This document shows, in pieces, positions 5,545-46,051 of a stretch of DNA of 46,059 bases. The position numbers and the translations under genes are program-made. Position 1 is the first letter of the stretch. Every line of letters begins with the position of its first letter. The stretch is from a virus. The notes under the pieces are model-generated. The model saw only the letters and a program-made list of their open reading frames with translations, did not search any database and was not told the DNA's origin. The DNA is taken from positions 1 through 46,059 of the IMG/VR virus record IMGVR_UViG_3300043540_000318, one strand, 5' to 3'.

Positions 5545-6518
5545 TTTGACCCACCGCCCAATAAATAATATGTAGCTGCTCTCATGAAATTTTTAACATA
5601 GTCCTTCAATTTCTGAGTGTACTTTGTCTCCACTTCTTCCTTTATCGCCTCTTGTACAATCTGTTTCGTAACCTTCACATCGCCTTTATTGCCACGAATC
5701 TGAAGTTGAGCTGAGCCGGCGGTAAGGAGAATGACCCCGCCTTCTTTAGTGCTCATATAAAATGACGGGCCTTGAGATGAACCATTTGAGTTATGCACAG
5801 AAATCAACAACGTGCCACCATCATCAGAATCCTGAATACAGATACCACTACCATTGAGTGATGCCAGTTGTACAATAGCATTTCCATCCTTCAACAGCTC
5901 ACCTGGGCTTTTCGATGTCTGACAACCAACACACTGATCGCCCCTACGCTCGGCAGTTCTTGGTTGTGTCTCCTTCCCCTCACTCTGGGTTGGCTCACTA
6001 CCCTTAAAACCACCAATCAGGTTAAGCCCAAACCCTGCGGCGTGTTTAATGCTCAACGCCTCTTTTCCAGTCTCATCACCCATGTAAATAGTGTGTCCTG
6101 CTGGGGTTTTGAGCATATAGACTAGATGCTCCTTGCCCTTTTTTTGTGCATTACTCACCTCAATAGGTACGTGACCGGTCTTGTCATCTACCGACTCCGC
6201 GACAGTACCAGATGGTATTGCAATCGGCTGGAGCATATCACCAGCAGCATATCCATATAACACAGTCTGTCGAGGTTGCATCGGCCAGTAAATGCCACAA
6301 TCCCCTTTATTGTAACCGCCACCAAGCGGGAGACCACAGACATCAACATAGTTTGTGTAATTCTCCTCACCAACACCGTGCAAATCTGGGCACTCCACCT
6401 GGATTCTACCCATGCCAAGTGGGTCTCCCTCAACTTTGCGCACTACCGCCTGATGGAAGGTTGTGAGCGCAACCACGTTCTGTATAGAAGGATCAAAGAC
6501 TAAAAAATCTGACCACAT
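5541..6518 (-). CDS. Central spike / gp5-VgrG-like OB-fold protein
   Basis: 325 residues. Residues about 20-110 show the OB-fold of gp5/gpV spikes (AVVRKVEGDPLGMGRIQVECP ... QPRQTVLYGYAAGDMLQPI). Residues about 130-160 (LKTPAGHTIYMGDETGKEAL) resemble the segment leading into the spike beta-helix. There is no lysozyme domain of the T4 gp5 type. The C-terminal ~60 residues are charged and probably helical, so a separate tip protein may be needed. It lies between the hub protein and gp25, as expected for the membrane-puncturing device. Confidence 0.8.
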   Translation of the reverse strand: MWSDFLVFDPSIQNVVALTTFHQAVVRKVEGDPLGMGRIQVECPDLHGVGEENYTNYVDVCGLPLGGGYNKGDCGIYWPMQPRQTVLYGYAAGDMLQPIAIPSGTVAESVDDKTGHVPIEVSNAQKKGKEHLVYMLKTPAGHTIYMGDETGKEALSIKHAAGFGLNLIGGFKGSEPTQSEGKETQPRTAERRGDQCVGCQTSKSPGELLKDGNAIVQLASLNGSGICIQDSDDGGTLLISVHNSNGSSQGPSFYMSTKEGGVILLTAGSAQLQIRGNKGDVKVTKQIVQEAIKEEVETKYTQKLKDYVKNFMRAATYYLLGGGSK

Positions 6519-41193: not shown

Positions 41194-41202
41194 GGGGTTA
41201 AG

Positions 41203-41955
41203 GGGGGGCTCCAACAACTGCAGCCAAGTTGCTAATTTGACTGTAGTTGTTGGGGGAAAGAAAATAAAGTGGGTTGCGGTCAGTGGACTCACCTGCATAA
41301 AAAGCTACCCTTGCTGGTAACTCCCTGATGCAAAGTCCGACCGCAACGTCCAGCCCACCCGCAGAAGCGGGGCGACGCCAAGAGTACAGAGATGTTGAGG
41401 CGCGGGTGATGGTGGAAGGGGGCGGTGATCCTCAGGGGGGGAAGTACTGAGGATGCGTCACACCGCCCCGTCGCAACCCCTGGAACCCCACAGGGACACA
41501 CCACCTAGGTGCAGACACTCCAAAAGGGAGTGGAGCTCGCGATATGCAGCGACCGTCGGGATGACGGACGTGGGAGTCGTGGCAATGTCTGGAGCCACGG
41601 CAAGGCAAAAAGGCGGGTTACATGCACCGAAACCGGAAATCCCAGACAGGGGGTTGACGTCATCCCTAAGCTCCAATGAGGACAACGGGAAGATGAGCCG
41701 CCGCGACATAACGGGAAGTGAAAGTGAATCGTAAGTCAGGAGTCGCGGGGCGGTACTAAGCAAGGAGCAAGGGGATGACGTCCGACCTGCCCGCGATCTG
41801 CGAGGAGACTCGATCGCGTAATGATCCCCGCCCCTCGTGCCAACAACGACGACGGGCGACATGGGACCACTGATGTCAAGTTGGCGTGGAGACATCCTGG
41901 TTGCGGTCGAAAGGCAACGTTGCCAGCCAGACCAGATCGTGGGCATCCTCCTAAA
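41203..41955 (+). ncRNA. Candidate large structured non-coding RNA (~750 nt)
   Basis: A GC-rich stretch without a believable gene but with many stable helices. At 41211-41253 lies a 13-bp stem with one G-U. At 41273-41347 an arm carries nested stems GTTGCGGTC/GACCGCAAC, GGACT/AGTCC, TGCAT/ATGCA and TACC/GGTA. CCCGC/GCGGG with loop AGAA is at 41358-41371, and 41419-41469 has a 9-bp stem over a 7-bp stem. Hairpins follow at 41516-41532, 41553-41567 and 41578-41599. At 41792-41818 a stem is capped by a GAGA (GNRA) loop. GCCAAC/GTTGGC (41839-41885) encloses GACAT/ATGTC. GACGTCATCCC (41656-41666) and GGGATGACGTC (41772-41782) make an 11-bp long-range helix that crosses the 41747/41834 stem, a possible pseudoknot. 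Size, complexity and phage context recall GOLLD and ROOL RNAs; identity is not established. No own promoter or terminator is seen, so it may be processed from the operon transcript. Confidence 0.55.
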
Positions 41956-42005
41956 CAATAGACCTGAGTAGAAGGGATTGCTAACATGGAAAGGAGGTGA
42001 TAGCG

Positions 42006-42161: not shown

Positions 42162-42311
42162 GTGATCCGCGTCCCGAAGCGCGGCCATGACACACTCGCA
42201 TGGGTGGAACCGAGTGCAAACACGAATCAAAAAAGAAACGGAGGAGTTAAGAATGTTAATTATCAATGCAATCAGTGTAAACATGCTGCCCAAAGAAGGG
42301 GCGGCACTTAA
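42162..42311 (+). CDS. Possible 49-residue ORF overlapping the AcrIII-1 start
   Basis: GTG 42162 with GAGG 5 nt upstream opens a frame (IRVPKRGHDTLAWVEP..., with a CNQC pair) that runs 59 nt into the AcrIII-1 gene in another frame. The first 17 residues look protein-like, the rest less so. It may be a leader ORF coupling translation to the anti-CRISPR gene, or chance. Confidence 0.25.
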   Translation: MIRVPKRGHDTLAWVEPSANTNQKRNGGVKNVNYQCNQCKHAAQRRGGT

Positions 42312-42573
42312 GGTCCGACCGGTCTCCCTGGAGCAAGCCAGGGAAATACTGGAAGACGGGTTCGAATCAGCCATAGGTCACACCGAGACCGCGAATGTGG
42401 TCGGTGGGATGCTGGGCATGTCAGTACCCACGAACAGAGTCACGGTGCAACTGGGCTTCGGAGACGAGGCTCTGGTGGCACAGTATATAGGTCAGAGGCT
42501 GCCCGAAGGGGCAACCTCGCTGCCGGAAGGTGCAGAGATAAGGTTCTTCTACCTCACGGTGGAAGAACTCTAA
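42253..42573 (+). CDS. acrIII-1: AcrIII-1 family ring nuclease (DUF1874), anti-type III CRISPR
   Basis: 106 residues from ATG 42253 (GGAGGAG 6 nt upstream). The sequence follows the DUF1874 pattern closely: LIINAISVNML at the start, ESAIGHTETANVVGGML with the catalytic-type His43, NRVTVQLGFGDEALVAQ and YIGQRLPEG. In SIRV1 gp29 the corresponding elements are FSINML, SIGHDST and ISQRLEEG. The family cleaves cyclic tetra-adenylate, the second messenger made by type III CRISPR complexes, and so shuts off the ancillary nucleases. It is placed in the accessory operon after the acidic small protein. The leader hairpin of the next gene begins four bases after its stop. Confidence 0.9.
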   Translation: MLIINAISVNMLPKEGAALKVRPVSLEQAREILEDGFESAIGHTETANVVGGMLGMSVPTNRVTVQLGFGDEALVAQYIGQRLPEGATSLPEGAEIRFFYLTVEEL

Positions 42574-42577
42574 GACC

Positions 42578-42613
42578 TCCTCCTGGGCATGAGGTTAAAC
42601 TGCCCAGAAAGGA
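42578..42613 (+). promoter_or_regulatory. SD-sequestering leader hairpin, copy 1
   Basis: TCCT, C, CTGGGCA, loop TGAGGTTAAAC, TGCCCAG, AA, AGGA. The 7-bp stem is perfect and the outer TCCT/AGGA pairing covers the Shine-Dalgarno of the gene starting at 42621. The loop framework TGAG-N2-TAAAC is shared by all three copies. Confidence 0.8.
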
Positions 42614-42620
42614 AAGAACG

Positions 42621-42908
42621 ATGGCTGAAGAACGAAGTGGTATCGAGAGGGTAGTGAAGGTAAAACCATTGAGCATGTTGAACGAGAAACAGGCTGCATG
42701 GCTAGAAAGGTTCAAAGACTGGGACGAGGTTGATGAGTACTTCTTCAACCTCGTCGGAGATGGTGACTCCGCAATCCGCTTCTACGACAGAGTCGTGGAA
42801 GTAATGGAGGAATTGGAGAAGAAGTATGGAGGCAGGGTTCGGACATTCCCCGAGGACCCGCCATGGGTCTTCAGGTTGTATGTCCAGAAAGGAGGTAAGA
42901 GACAATGA
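42621..42908 (+). CDS. Paralog family P1, copy a (unknown)
   Basis: 95 residues. Shares the segments GIERVVKVKP, LNEKQAAWLERFKDWDEVDEYF, AIRFYDRVVEVME and FPEDPPWVFRLYVQKGGK with the gene at 44253-44531, so the two are clear paralogs. Predicted small alpha/beta protein ending in a basic strand. No known family. Both copies have the conserved SD-sequestering hairpin immediately upstream (AGGA 7 nt before the ATG), suggesting common translational control. Position after the anti-CRISPR gene suggests a host-takeover or counter-defence role, which is inference. Confidence 0.75.
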   Translation: MAEERSGIERVVKVKPLSMLNEKQAAWLERFKDWDEVDEYFFNLVGDGDSAIRFYDRVVEVMEELEKKYGGRVRTFPEDPPWVFRLYVQKGGKRQ

Positions 42909-43060
42909 TCGGAGTGTGGAAGAACGAGAAGGTGTGGGTGCCTGAGGCTTCGGTGAAGTCGAGGGAGTTCATGAGAGTCAACAGGGTCAACGGTGAAAAA
43001 CGAATCACCGTTGTGAAAGTGGTGGTTAAACCACCAAGAAAGGAGGTGGAGAAAGCGTAG
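42905..43060 (+). CDS. 51-residue basic protein
   Basis: ATG 42905 overlaps the P1a stop (ATGA); AAGGAGG lies 9 nt upstream. The product begins MIGVWKNEKVWVPEAS and is rich in Lys, Arg and Val (ITVVKVVVKPPRKEVEK), about 12 net positive charges less acidic residues. The region GTTAACGG-like codons form hairpins (AACGGTG/CACCGTT). Probably a small nucleic-acid-binding or inhibitor protein; no family is recognised. Absent from the second P1 copy. Confidence 0.6.
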   Translation: MIGVWKNEKVWVPEASVKSREFMRVNRVNGEKRITVVKVVVKPPRKEVEKA

Positions 43061-43065
43061 GGTCA

Positions 43066-43109
43066 GGCGGGGCATCGCCCCGCCAAAAATCACCTGAAAG
43101 GAGGTGATT
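43066..43109 (+). promoter_or_regulatory. GC-rich hairpin plus SD-sequestering hairpin
   Basis: GGCGGGGC/GCCCCGCC with loop ATC (43066-43084) is followed by AAAAAT and a second stem AATCACCT/AGGTGATT (43088-43109, loop GAAAGG) that encloses a perfect AGGAGGTGA ribosome site. The first is not a plus-strand terminator because no T-run follows. Confidence 0.65.
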
Positions 43110-43118
43110 CAAATGTTC

Positions 43119-43282
43119 CCACAATGGTCAGTTCTGTTGTGGGAGAGTATCCAGGGTCCCAGATGTAGGGGAGTCTGGACTCATTCGGAAAATGAGGAGG
43201 GACTCCCTAACCTCGGTGCAGGACTTGCATCGGGGGTGTTATCAACTCCGCATCGACATCAGCATCAGCATCGATGTTGGTG
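43119..43282 (+). repeat. Structured repeat element X, copy A
   Basis: Hairpins CCACAA/TTGTGG (43119-43142) and GGGTCCCAGA/TCTGGACTC (43154-43182, one bulged C) are followed by CATT/AATG and by a repeat ending CAGCATCGATGTTGGTG (to 43282). It aligns in the same order with copy B at 43675-43866, while the reading frames of the two copies are not conserved. A short ORF (ATG 43113) begins here but is probably a leader or nothing. From 43061 to 43377 no other gene is seen. Confidence 0.5.
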
Positions 43283-43329
43283 TTGATCTTGTATCAGCAT
43301 CGACATCAGCGCTGATGGCGCTGGACCCA

Positions 43330-43373
43330 CTGTCTGCAACATCGACAGCGGGTAAAATCGTATCGGAGGTTGT
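43330..43373 (+). promoter_or_regulatory. Second-type leader hairpin before P2a
   Basis: CTGTC/GACAG stem (43330-43348), then GGTAAAATCGTATCGGAGGT carrying the SD of the gene at 43378. The two other copies (43911 and 44561) have the tighter form stem, loop TTTCG, stem, then GGTAAAAAATCGGAGGT. Confidence 0.5.
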
Positions 43374-43377
43374 TGAA

Positions 43378-43617
43378 ATGACATTTGTAGAACTGCAAAC
43401 GAGGAGGGTGAGGGCGGCCAGGAAGGTGTTGGACGCGTTGTATCGCGACATCACGGAGTTCCGTATCATCCATTTCCCCGACGGGGATGTGGATGATGAT
43501 CGGGCCCCGATCCCAGAGGTCGTGGGATCGGAGGAAATCGCTGAGCTGATCGAACAGATCAGTCCACTGATCGGAGAGTTGCAGCATGAGGTTGACAACC
43601 TCATCGACTGCAGGTAG
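43378..43617 (+). CDS. Paralog family P2, copy a (unknown)
   Basis: 79 residues from ATG 43378 (GGAGG 7-8 nt upstream). Shares TF-E-Q-R-VR--RK-L--LYRDITE, PIP-VVGSEEIAELIEQISPL and a final DNL-DCR with the gene at 43951. The N-terminus is basic, the rest acidic; two long helices are likely. No family is recognised. The stop is followed directly by an SD-sequestering hairpin. Confidence 0.72.
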   Translation: MTFVELQTRRVRAARKVLDALYRDITEFRIIHFPDGDVDDDRAPIPEVVGSEEIAELIEQISPLIGELQHEVDNLIDCR

Positions 43618-43621
43618 AATT

Positions 43622-43657
43622 TCCTCCTGGGCATGAGGCTAAACTGCCCAGAAAGGA
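43622..43657 (+). promoter_or_regulatory. SD-sequestering leader hairpin, copy 2
   Basis: TCCT, C, CTGGGCA, loop TGAGGCTAAAC, TGCCCAG, AA, AGGA, GGG. An ATG at 43662 follows 4 nt after, opening an 89-codon frame through element X copy B. Because that frame is not conserved with copy A, the downstream target is uncertain. Confidence 0.75.
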
Positions 43658-43674
43658 GGGTATGAAGGTGAGCT

Positions 43675-43866
43675 CACAACGATGGCTGACGTTGTGGGTG
43701 AGTCAGAAGACCAGATGTACATGGGTGCGTCTGGTCTTCATCGGAAATCTGGATGGGGTGAGTCTAGCCTCGGTCATGAATTTGATTGGGGATAGCCTAA
43801 CTCTCGAACAGTCCAAAAAGATGGGCATCAGCAACAGCGGAAACAGCATCAGCATCGATGTTGGTG
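43675..43866 (+). repeat. Structured repeat element X, copy B
   Basis: CACAAC/GTTGTG (43675-43696), a perfect 10-bp stem GAAGACCAGA/TCTGGTCTTC (43706-43739), CATC/GATG, and the 23-nt repeat that ends CAGCATCGATGTTGGTG at 43866, identical to the one in copy A. The stems differ from copy A by paired changes (GGUC/GACC-type exchanges), which argues for RNA rather than protein conservation. From 43618 to 43950 no convincing gene is seen. Confidence 0.5.
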
Positions 43867-43910
43867 GTGATTGCACATCAGCATCAACATCGGTGTTGAT
43901 CATACATCGA

Positions 43911-43942
43911 ACCAGCGTTTCGCGCTGGTAAAAAATCGGAGG
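43911..43942 (+). promoter_or_regulatory. Second-type leader hairpin before P2b
   Basis: ACCAGCG, loop TTTCG, CGCTGGT, then AAAAAATCGGAGGT with the SD. Compared with the copy at 44561 (GCCGGCG/CGCCGGT) the fourth base pair changes A-U to G-C, a compensatory exchange, with loop and downstream segment identical. Confidence 0.65.
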
Positions 43943-43950
43943 TGATGGCG

Positions 43951-44205
43951 ATGAGAATGACATTCGAGGAATGGCAGGCAAGAAAGGTGAGGAAGATGAG
44001 GAAACTGTTGGAGTCGCTTTATCGCGACATAACTGAGCTACACATCACGTATTTTGAAGACGGCAGGTGGGAGCTCGATGACGAAGGTCGTCATCCTATC
44101 CCAGATATTGTTGGTTCCGAGGAGATTGCTGGGCTGGTCGAACAGATTAGCCCATTGTTGGGCAAACTCCAGAAAGCAACCGATAACCTCCAGGACTGCC
44201 GATAA
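43951..44205 (+). CDS. Paralog family P2, copy b (unknown)
   Basis: 84 residues from ATG 43951 (GGAGG 8 nt upstream); GTG/ATG codons at 43942-43947 overlap the SD. MTFEEWQARKVRKMRK, LYRDITELHITYFEDG, HPIPDIVGSEEIAGLVEQISPL and DNLQDCR match copy a with a small insertion (GRWELDDEGRH). A loosely similar element (VVDDEGREWPL) occurs in the gene at 45723. Unknown function. Confidence 0.72.
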   Translation: MRMTFEEWQARKVRKMRKLLESLYRDITELHITYFEDGRWELDDEGRHPIPDIVGSEEIAGLVEQISPLLGKLQKATDNLQDCR

Positions 44206-44209
44206 CACA

Positions 44210-44245
44210 TTCTCCTAGGCATGAGAATAAACTGCCTAGAAAGGA
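44210..44245 (+). promoter_or_regulatory. SD-sequestering leader hairpin, copy 3
   Basis: TTCT, C, CTAGGCA, loop TGAGAATAAAC, TGCCTAG, AA, AGGA. Relative to copies 1 and 2 one G-C pair of the stem became A-U (CTAGGCA/TGCCTAG), and the outer UUCU still pairs with AGGA through a G-U. AGGA lies 7 nt before the ATG at 44253. Confidence 0.8.
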
Positions 44246-44252
44246 AATGAAA

Positions 44253-44531
44253 ATGGAAAGAGAAGGAATTGAAAGAGTGGTGAAGGTTAGACCGTGGAGC
44301 ACACTGAACGATCGTCAGGCTGCATGGTTGAAGCAGTTCAAGGATTGGGACGAGGTTGATGAGTTTTTCTTCAACCTCACCGGAAACTACGAGGCAGCCA
44401 TTCGCTTCTACGACAGGGTCGTGGAAGTGATGGAGGGTCTCGGAAAGACATACGAAGGGGCGGTGAAGACATTCCCCGATGATCCGCCGTGGACCTTCAG
44501 GGTTTACGTCAGAAAGGGCGGGAAAAGGTAG
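44253..44531 (+). CDS. Paralog family P1, copy b (unknown)
   Basis: 92 residues from ATG 44253, the start equivalent to P1a and 7 nt after AGGA; an ATG at 44247 is too close to the SD. About two thirds of residues match P1a, including the invariant-looking WDEVDEFFFNL, FYDRVVEVMEGL and DDPPWTFRVYV. DNA hairpins inside the gene (GAGGTTGA/TCAACCTC; TTCTACGAC/GTCGTGGAA) are shared with P1a. Unknown function. Confidence 0.75.
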   Translation: MEREGIERVVKVRPWSTLNDRQAAWLKQFKDWDEVDEFFFNLTGNYEAAIRFYDRVVEVMEGLGKTYEGAVKTFPDDPPWTFRVYVRKGGKR

Positions 44532-44560: not shown

Positions 44561-44590
44561 GCCGGCGTTTCGCGCCGGTAAAAAATCGGA
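44561..44590 (+). promoter_or_regulatory. Second-type leader hairpin before the 368-residue gene
   Basis: GCCGGCG, loop TTTCG, CGCCGGT, then AAAAAATCGGAGG with the SD of the gene at 44600. Same loop and spacer as the copy at 43911, with paired differences in the stem. Confidence 0.65.
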
Positions 44591-44599
44591 GGTAGAAAG

Positions 44600-45992: not shown

Positions 45993-46014
45993 CAATTAAG
46001 ATTCCACATGTAGT

Positions 46015-46051
46015 CGATGCTGATATCAATCCTGTATTGGTATCAGCATCG
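46015..46051 (+). terminator. Long hairpin at the right edge, possible terminator
   Basis: A 16-bp stem (CGATGCTGATATCAAT with ATTGGTATCAGCATCG, one G-U) with loop CCTGT, followed by TCGTTTAT. The ATCAGCATCG core also occurs in the repeats at 43263 and 43847. The T-run is poor, and the window ends before the element can be judged. Confidence 0.4.

Follow-up and report, generated by a model that had tools for sequence, protein, structure and literature searches.

The window analysed here, the whole 46,059-nt stretch of virus record IMGVR_UViG_3300043540_000318, carries three copies of a repeated unit that covariation identifies as an H-type RNA pseudoknot of 28 nt, on which selection acts in many unrelated phages. 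Its placement marks the family as a gene-end (3'UTR) element, set very close behind the stop codon of the upstream gene. From this position we infer, with about even odds (roughly 50%), that the pseudoknot serves the upstream mRNA as a 3'-end cap.

Structure and covariation

The three units of the original prediction are present with the sequences and at the places given for them, and the idea of a selected RNA element with paired changes holds, since both helices, S1 and S2, covary. The fold is a different one. What had been drawn as a plain hairpin has a 'loop', GAGG or GAGA, which pairs with CCUC or UCUC immediately upstream to form a pseudoknot; the outer 'UCCU, C' element is mostly helix S1 instead, and the conserved 'loop' is half of the second helix. 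A perfect 7-bp stem does exist in the window, though its seventh pair, C-G, is local: elsewhere the base that follows the motif is G in only 27 of the 460 copies listed. The family consensus is NNNC-C-UrrGCA-U-GNNN-nUAAAC-UGCyyA, that is, S1 of 4 bp, a one-base L1 (C), S2 of about 6 bp, a one-base linker (U) and L3 (nUAAAC). The helix strands follow each other in the A-B-A'-B' order of an H-type pseudoknot with covariation in support, and the plain hairpin is superseded by the S1 covariation.

IMG/VR was first scanned with GCATGAGNNTAAACTGC, which matched at least 120 stretches. Nearly all matches listed had CTCC upstream, although it is absent from the pattern, and changes in the base preceding CTC were accompanied by changes in the one that follows the loop GAG, which suggested a second helix. 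With most of S2 left free, matches fell into two distinct classes, true copies having 5–6 of 6 S2 pairs and chance matches. Scans with S1 free yielded two sets of 73 and 95 distinct copies among the matches listed, C3-G12 being fixed by the patterns. Of the pairs left free, S1 pair 2 (U-A, A-U, C-G or G-C) was formed in 73/73 and 95/95 listed copies, pair 1 (C-G, G-C, A-U or U-A) in 71/73 and 93/95, and pair 0 in 50/73 and 70/95. All three outer S1 pairs were formed together in 48/73 and 70/95 listed copies versus shuffle means of 6.4 and 8.6, and in at most 9 copies when the strands were slid. For S2, which was not used for selecting, all five inner pairs were present in 105 of 152 listed copies against a shuffle maximum of 50. 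In an alignment of 51 sequences 97.1% of S1 and S2 cells are paired and the covariation score is 0.673 (0.209 shuffled, at most 0.137 slid); these rows were picked by a finder that favours pairing, and the unbiased tests are the free-S1 and free-S2 scans. G-U pairs are present in the helices, which suits RNA.

C3-G12, the L1 C, A10 and AAAC are almost invariant among the matches listed, and such strong conservation of L3 and L1 could be a sign of a binding partner. A dedicated phage protein, among the possible binders suggested originally, is unlikely as a general rule: an ssDNA microvirus with five genes carries a copy, which argues that no phage protein partner is generally required and makes a common one implausible. 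The pseudoknot might instead serve regulation, as the operator or handle that a conserved RNA-binding protein of the host recognises, since the near-invariant bases exceed the needs of a plain stable fold. They fit intrinsic pseudoknot triples as well, which conserved bases of this kind serve in luteoviral pseudoknots, and we regard the host-protein reading as very improbable.

Distribution among phages

The expectation of more copies in other phages was borne out. With a generic finder we collected at least 547 copies (at least 462 distinct 40-mers), and a covariance model matches all three copies of the window; at its cut-off the finder gave 0 matches in a reversed-sequence control of about 4 Mb. 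All family counts are lower bounds, with copies deduplicated by sequence and kinship ignored, and gene calls in contigs are simple ORFs. Carriers are phages whose hosts belong to at least four bacterial phyla, plus a single ssDNA microvirus. Isolates among them include phages of Roseobacter, Lentibacter, Paracoccus, Vibrio, Synechococcus, Nostoc, Microcystis, Mycobacterium, Corynebacterium, Cellulosimicrobium, Moorella, Lactobacillus, Streptococcus and Staphylococcus, while Escherichia and Erwinia Chaseviridae have a pseudoknot form with one mismatched S1 pair. Carriers with a laboratory host include Corynebacterium glutamicum phi673, Lentibacter vB_LenP_ICBM1, Mycobacterium smegmatis Labelle and an E. 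coli Carltongylesvirus. Ten contigs searched whole held 5–9 copies each, most of them on the same strand and grouped within one region, and in multicopy contigs the S1 sequences differ between copies yet still pair. One common motif version was met only 7 times across 257 Gb of bacterial genomes, and bacterial genomes searched whole had at most one copy each.

Rfam 15 gave no family at the gathering threshold and no match over the motif up to E 10. No published account of the motif or of gene-end phage pseudoknots was found in a search limited to journal papers and to a minority of the subscription journals. Two arrangements may be mentioned separately. In contig L105 (4418–5110) four near-identical copies share a stretch of some 700 nt that appears to be noncoding, and in the 6-kb, five-gene microvirus L454 a copy (5802–5829) stands after the last gene and before TTTTT, the sequence next to it being TTTTTCTG.

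Association with stop codons

Among the 444 listed copies with enough upstream sequence, 337 lie at most 60 nt after a same-strand stop codon (stops of ORFs of at least 50 codons were considered), versus 64 for the opposite strand, and 217 lie 4–10 nt past the stop, as do 1.9% of random positions. The distance has a sharp onset at 4–5 nt and a mode of 5 (79 copies at exactly 5, two below 4). Where no same-strand start occurs within 100 nt downstream, 111 of 218 listed copies are still found 4–20 nt after a stop; since the motif stays near the stop even without a close downstream start, it is a gene-end element. The upstream genes are of many kinds, including those for phrog_1221/DUF932 proteins (19 of 72), Hsp20 (7), HNH nucleases and ssDNA-binding proteins, and in roseophages ribonucleotide reductase. 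Streptomyces phage Bmoc has no motif near its DUF932 gene; the motif is thus not a mere companion of this gene. Stimulation of stop-codon readthrough was considered and rejected: 67% of upstream stops among the matches listed are UAA, and in-frame extensions of at least 30 codons (37/195) compare with 26 and 39 in the other frames.

The tight spacing might point to the ribosome itself, with a pseudoknot at the mRNA entry of the terminating ribosome that would stop sliding or re-initiation into the next gene or tRNA by post-termination ribosomes and so insulate neighbouring cistrons. This is the chief alternative to the 3' cap. Sites between adjacent cistrons and before tRNAs agree with such a barrier, as does the next ribosome-binding site (RBS) directly after the motif in the window, and the mode of 5 nt is about where the ribosomal helicase site would meet the fold. 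The barrier appears unlikely, however, given copies at gene ends without a close same-strand gene and before U-runs, and the tolerance of distances up to tens of nucleotides.

The element could also act on the message that follows, as a 5'-end protector that would block 5'-to-3' decay by RNase J in the manner of exoribonuclease-resistant RNAs (xrRNAs). In several Bacillota phages (those of Staphylococcus, Streptococcus and Lactobacillus, and D6E) a copy stands just before scaffold-capsid genes, and an RBS is often next. The anchoring, however, is to the upstream stop and not to the downstream start, an RNase P cut 2–12 nt downstream would detach the pseudoknot from the tRNA, and the motif also occurs in phages of Vibrio and Escherichia, hosts which to our knowledge generally lack RNase J. 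We consider this reading very unlikely.

Copies in the window and the Shine-Dalgarno question

Copies 1–3 are found at one end of the 46-kb record, among clustered small genes (Table 1), with the upstream stop codons (42571–42573, 43615–43617 and 44203–44205) exactly 5 nt before copies 1, 2 and 3. TGAGNNTAAAC occurs 5 times in the window versus 0.37 expected, and a stem-containing pattern with at most 3 mismatches matches only the three reported places. Because copies 1 and 3 are followed, and copies 2 and 3 preceded, by paralogous genes, the copies probably spread partly through duplication. No relatives of genes A and B were found in IMG/VR. The gene before copy 1 belongs to PF08960, the family that includes the AcrIII-1 anti-CRISPR ring nuclease.

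Table 1. Pseudoknot copies and neighbouring genes in the window
Feature	Position	Strand	Description
STIV_B116-like protein gene	42253–42573	+	PF08960, E 3.5e-15; phrog_5063; ends before copy 1
Pseudoknot copy 1	42579–42606	+	covariance model E 8e-10
Copy 1, S1	42579–42582 / 42591–42594		CCUC / GAGG
Copy 1, S2	42584–42589 / 42601–42606		UGGGCA / UGCCCA
Copy 1, L1	42583		C
Copy 1, linker	42590		U
Copy 1, L3	42595–42600		UUAAAC
Gene A	42621–42908	+	starts 14 nt after copy 1; no confident family
Gene B	43378–43617	+	ends 5 nt before copy 2
Pseudoknot copy 2	43623–43650	+	covariance model E 2.5e-9
Copy 2, S1	43623–43626 / 43635–43638		CCUC / GAGG
Copy 2, S2	43628–43633 / 43645–43650		UGGGCA / UGCCCA
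Copy 2, L3			CUAAAC
ORF after copy 2	43662–43931	+	weak as a gene; no family
Gene B'	43945–44205	+	paralogue of B (65%); ends 5 nt before copy 3
Pseudoknot copy 3	44211–44238	+	covariance model E 2.5e-8
Copy 3, S1	44211–44214 / 44223–44226		UCUC / GAGA
Copy 3, S2	44216–44221 / 44233–44238		UAGGCA / UGCCUA
Copy 3, L3			AUAAAC
Gene A'	44253–44531	+	paralogue of A (74% identical); next after copy 3

The function first proposed was sequestration of the Shine-Dalgarno (SD) sequence: pairing of UCCU with AGGA would hide it, and a protein or an RNA would open it and so coordinate the gene set. When copies 1 and 2 are folded in isolation, the extended hairpin does come out as the calculated minimum (–14.5 kcal/mol versus –10.2 for the 7-bp hairpin, in a calculation that does not model pseudoknots). 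It pairs S1 bases with AGGA and thereby excludes S1, so that a local two-state SD switch is conceivable and, by this calculation, possible in the window for copies 1 and 2 only. In copy 3 the UUCU/AGGA pairing can be drawn, but it is absent from the minimum-energy fold of the isolated unit. Across the family an SD core lies within 12 nt in only 31 of 462 listed copies, and it does so equally often for CUCC-type S1 (9/139) and other S1 (22/323), which indicates no link between the anti-SD-like CUCC and the SD. Most copies have no overlap with an RBS, and it is the stop codon that fixes the position of the element; such a translational switch is thus extremely unlikely as the role of the family.

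Other features of this region are recorded here in their own right. A pair of hairpins, ACCAGCGTTTCGCGCTGGTAAAAAATCGGAGGT and GCCGGCGTTTCGCGCCGGTAAAAAATCGGAGGT (43911–43943 and 44561–44593), precedes RBSs and has a paired stem change. At 43024–43046 hairpin GGTGGTTAAACCACC is followed by AAGAAAGGAGG, with the TTAAAC and AAAGGA surroundings common to pseudoknot copies; the pseudoknot finder did not call it. CATCGACATCAGCATC-type repeats, also forming inverted repeats, are found at 43230–43315, 43835–43900 and 46014–46050. The stretch 41200–41990 is GC-rich, holds several inverted repeats and has neither a convincing gene nor an Rfam match; it may represent a structured noncoding RNA.

Sequences that follow the pseudoknot

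In at least 33 copies a same-strand tRNA starts 2–12 nt after the pseudoknot; near listed copies no opposite-strand tRNA was found within 100 nt and none ended within 18 nt upstream. Type III hammerhead cores lie about 10 nt after the motif in contigs L032 (motif at 2035, + strand) and L038 (2727, – strand), both positions being counted on the strand of the motif, with cleavage expected about 18–19 nt after the pseudoknot; one of the two is also matched by the Rfam model, at 42.4 bits, below its cut-off. U-runs occur within 14 nt after the motif in 51 of 462 listed copies (11%), versus 1 and 8 in control stretches, and T-runs follow the copies of the microvirus and of an S. aureus phage. G content in the 8 nt after the motif is 7.6% versus 23% further on (listed copies). 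A sigma-70 promoter as a general downstream feature was rejected (12/431 versus 89/3707, no enrichment).

The U-runs might suggest a pseudoknotted transcription terminator or pause element. A stem followed by a U-run, as in an intrinsic terminator, is indeed a property of the subset just given and not of the family: about 89% of listed copies have no U-run, U-runs are little commoner ahead of an opposite-strand gene (8/62 versus 40/368 listed), and the tRNA-flanked copies need continued transcription. Such a terminator or pause role is clearly unlikely.

The tRNA, hammerhead and U-run classes lead us to expect an RNA end just after the pseudoknot, as the 3'-cap reading has it. Transcription or processing would leave an RNA that ends shortly 3' of the pseudoknot, its end being made by RNase P where a tRNA follows, by a hammerhead or at a U-run, and for the remaining copies by a putative host endonuclease cut in the G-poor tail. 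The compact fold, probably with its A-rich strand in the S1 groove, would then block 3'-to-5' exonucleases, a property that we infer from its position. A 5-nt spacing is about the smallest that leaves a fold intact beside a terminating ribosome, judging from ribosome footprints. Phages would in this way be able to tune the mRNA lifetime of each gene individually and to keep neighbouring genes or tRNAs apart; within the window, the pseudoknots would isolate the anti-CRISPR-like gene and the small cassettes of genes A, B, B' and A' from one another. It should be noted, however, that about 80% of listed copies have neither a tRNA nor a U-run next, that over a quarter have a start codon with an SD within 45 nt downstream, and that Synechococcus phage S-CRM01 has a copy which follows a tRNA at 3 nt and does not precede one, all of which counts against a 3' cap. 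So do the Bacillota phage copies just before scaffold-capsid genes, for which a 5'-end role would account equally well, and the conservation of L3 and L1 with its hint of a binding partner.

Comparison with known RNA elements

The –1 frameshift pseudoknots of luteoviruses (BWYV, PLRV) have a short S1 and S2, a tiny C-containing L1 and an A-rich L3, as does the phage motif. Unlike them it is placed in 3' UTRs, mostly after UAA, and no reading frame through the fold is preferred. Viral xrRNAs and 3' triple-helix (ENE) elements block exonucleases by a compact tertiary fold. The likeness to these is an analogy of working only, exonuclease blocking by the phage motif being predicted; they belong to eukaryotic or plant virus RNAs, are larger and are unrelated in sequence.

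PeSL cassettes of T4-type phages are reportedly stem-loops between an upstream stop codon and an early promoter. They resemble the present family in a structure directly after the stop, small accessory gene clusters and swappable cassettes, but they are plain hairpins in one phage group, whereas the phage motif has no overall sigma-70 enrichment downstream. The motif is therefore not a PeSL cassette overall, although individual cases with TTGACA exist (5–14 nt downstream of a few copies).

The T4-type gene 32 mRNA pseudoknot is, like ours, a compact H-type pseudoknot in phage mRNA. It serves a single gene, lies in the leader 67 nt upstream of the start and is bound by gp32 in translational autorepression, and in 2010 it was called perhaps the only viral pseudoknot in translational autoregulation (PMC3014915). 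In contrast, the present family is multicopy, differs in sequence and is placed after stop codons in phages of four phyla; the motif follows the stops of many kinds of genes and is not the gene 32 operator.

Implications

The pseudoknots form a large, clearly covarying phage RNA family that is absent from Rfam 15 and reaches up to 9 copies per contig. 'Hairpins' beside RBSs are to be reread, since the conserved partner of the loop sits upstream. More tentatively, and with odds that we would put below even, the pseudoknot may be a phage-wide RNA punctuation, capping mRNA 3' ends made by different routes (RNase P, ribozyme or terminator) against host exonucleases. If so, unrelated phages of four bacterial phyla, with dsDNA and even ssDNA genomes, would have exchanged or retained it, and it would give them a host-independent, self-sufficient way to stabilise chosen transcripts. 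If it is a stabiliser or insulator from Synechococcus to Staphylococcus to Mycobacterium, the family would offer a direct test of how phage mRNA escapes decay, as well as a portable expression part.
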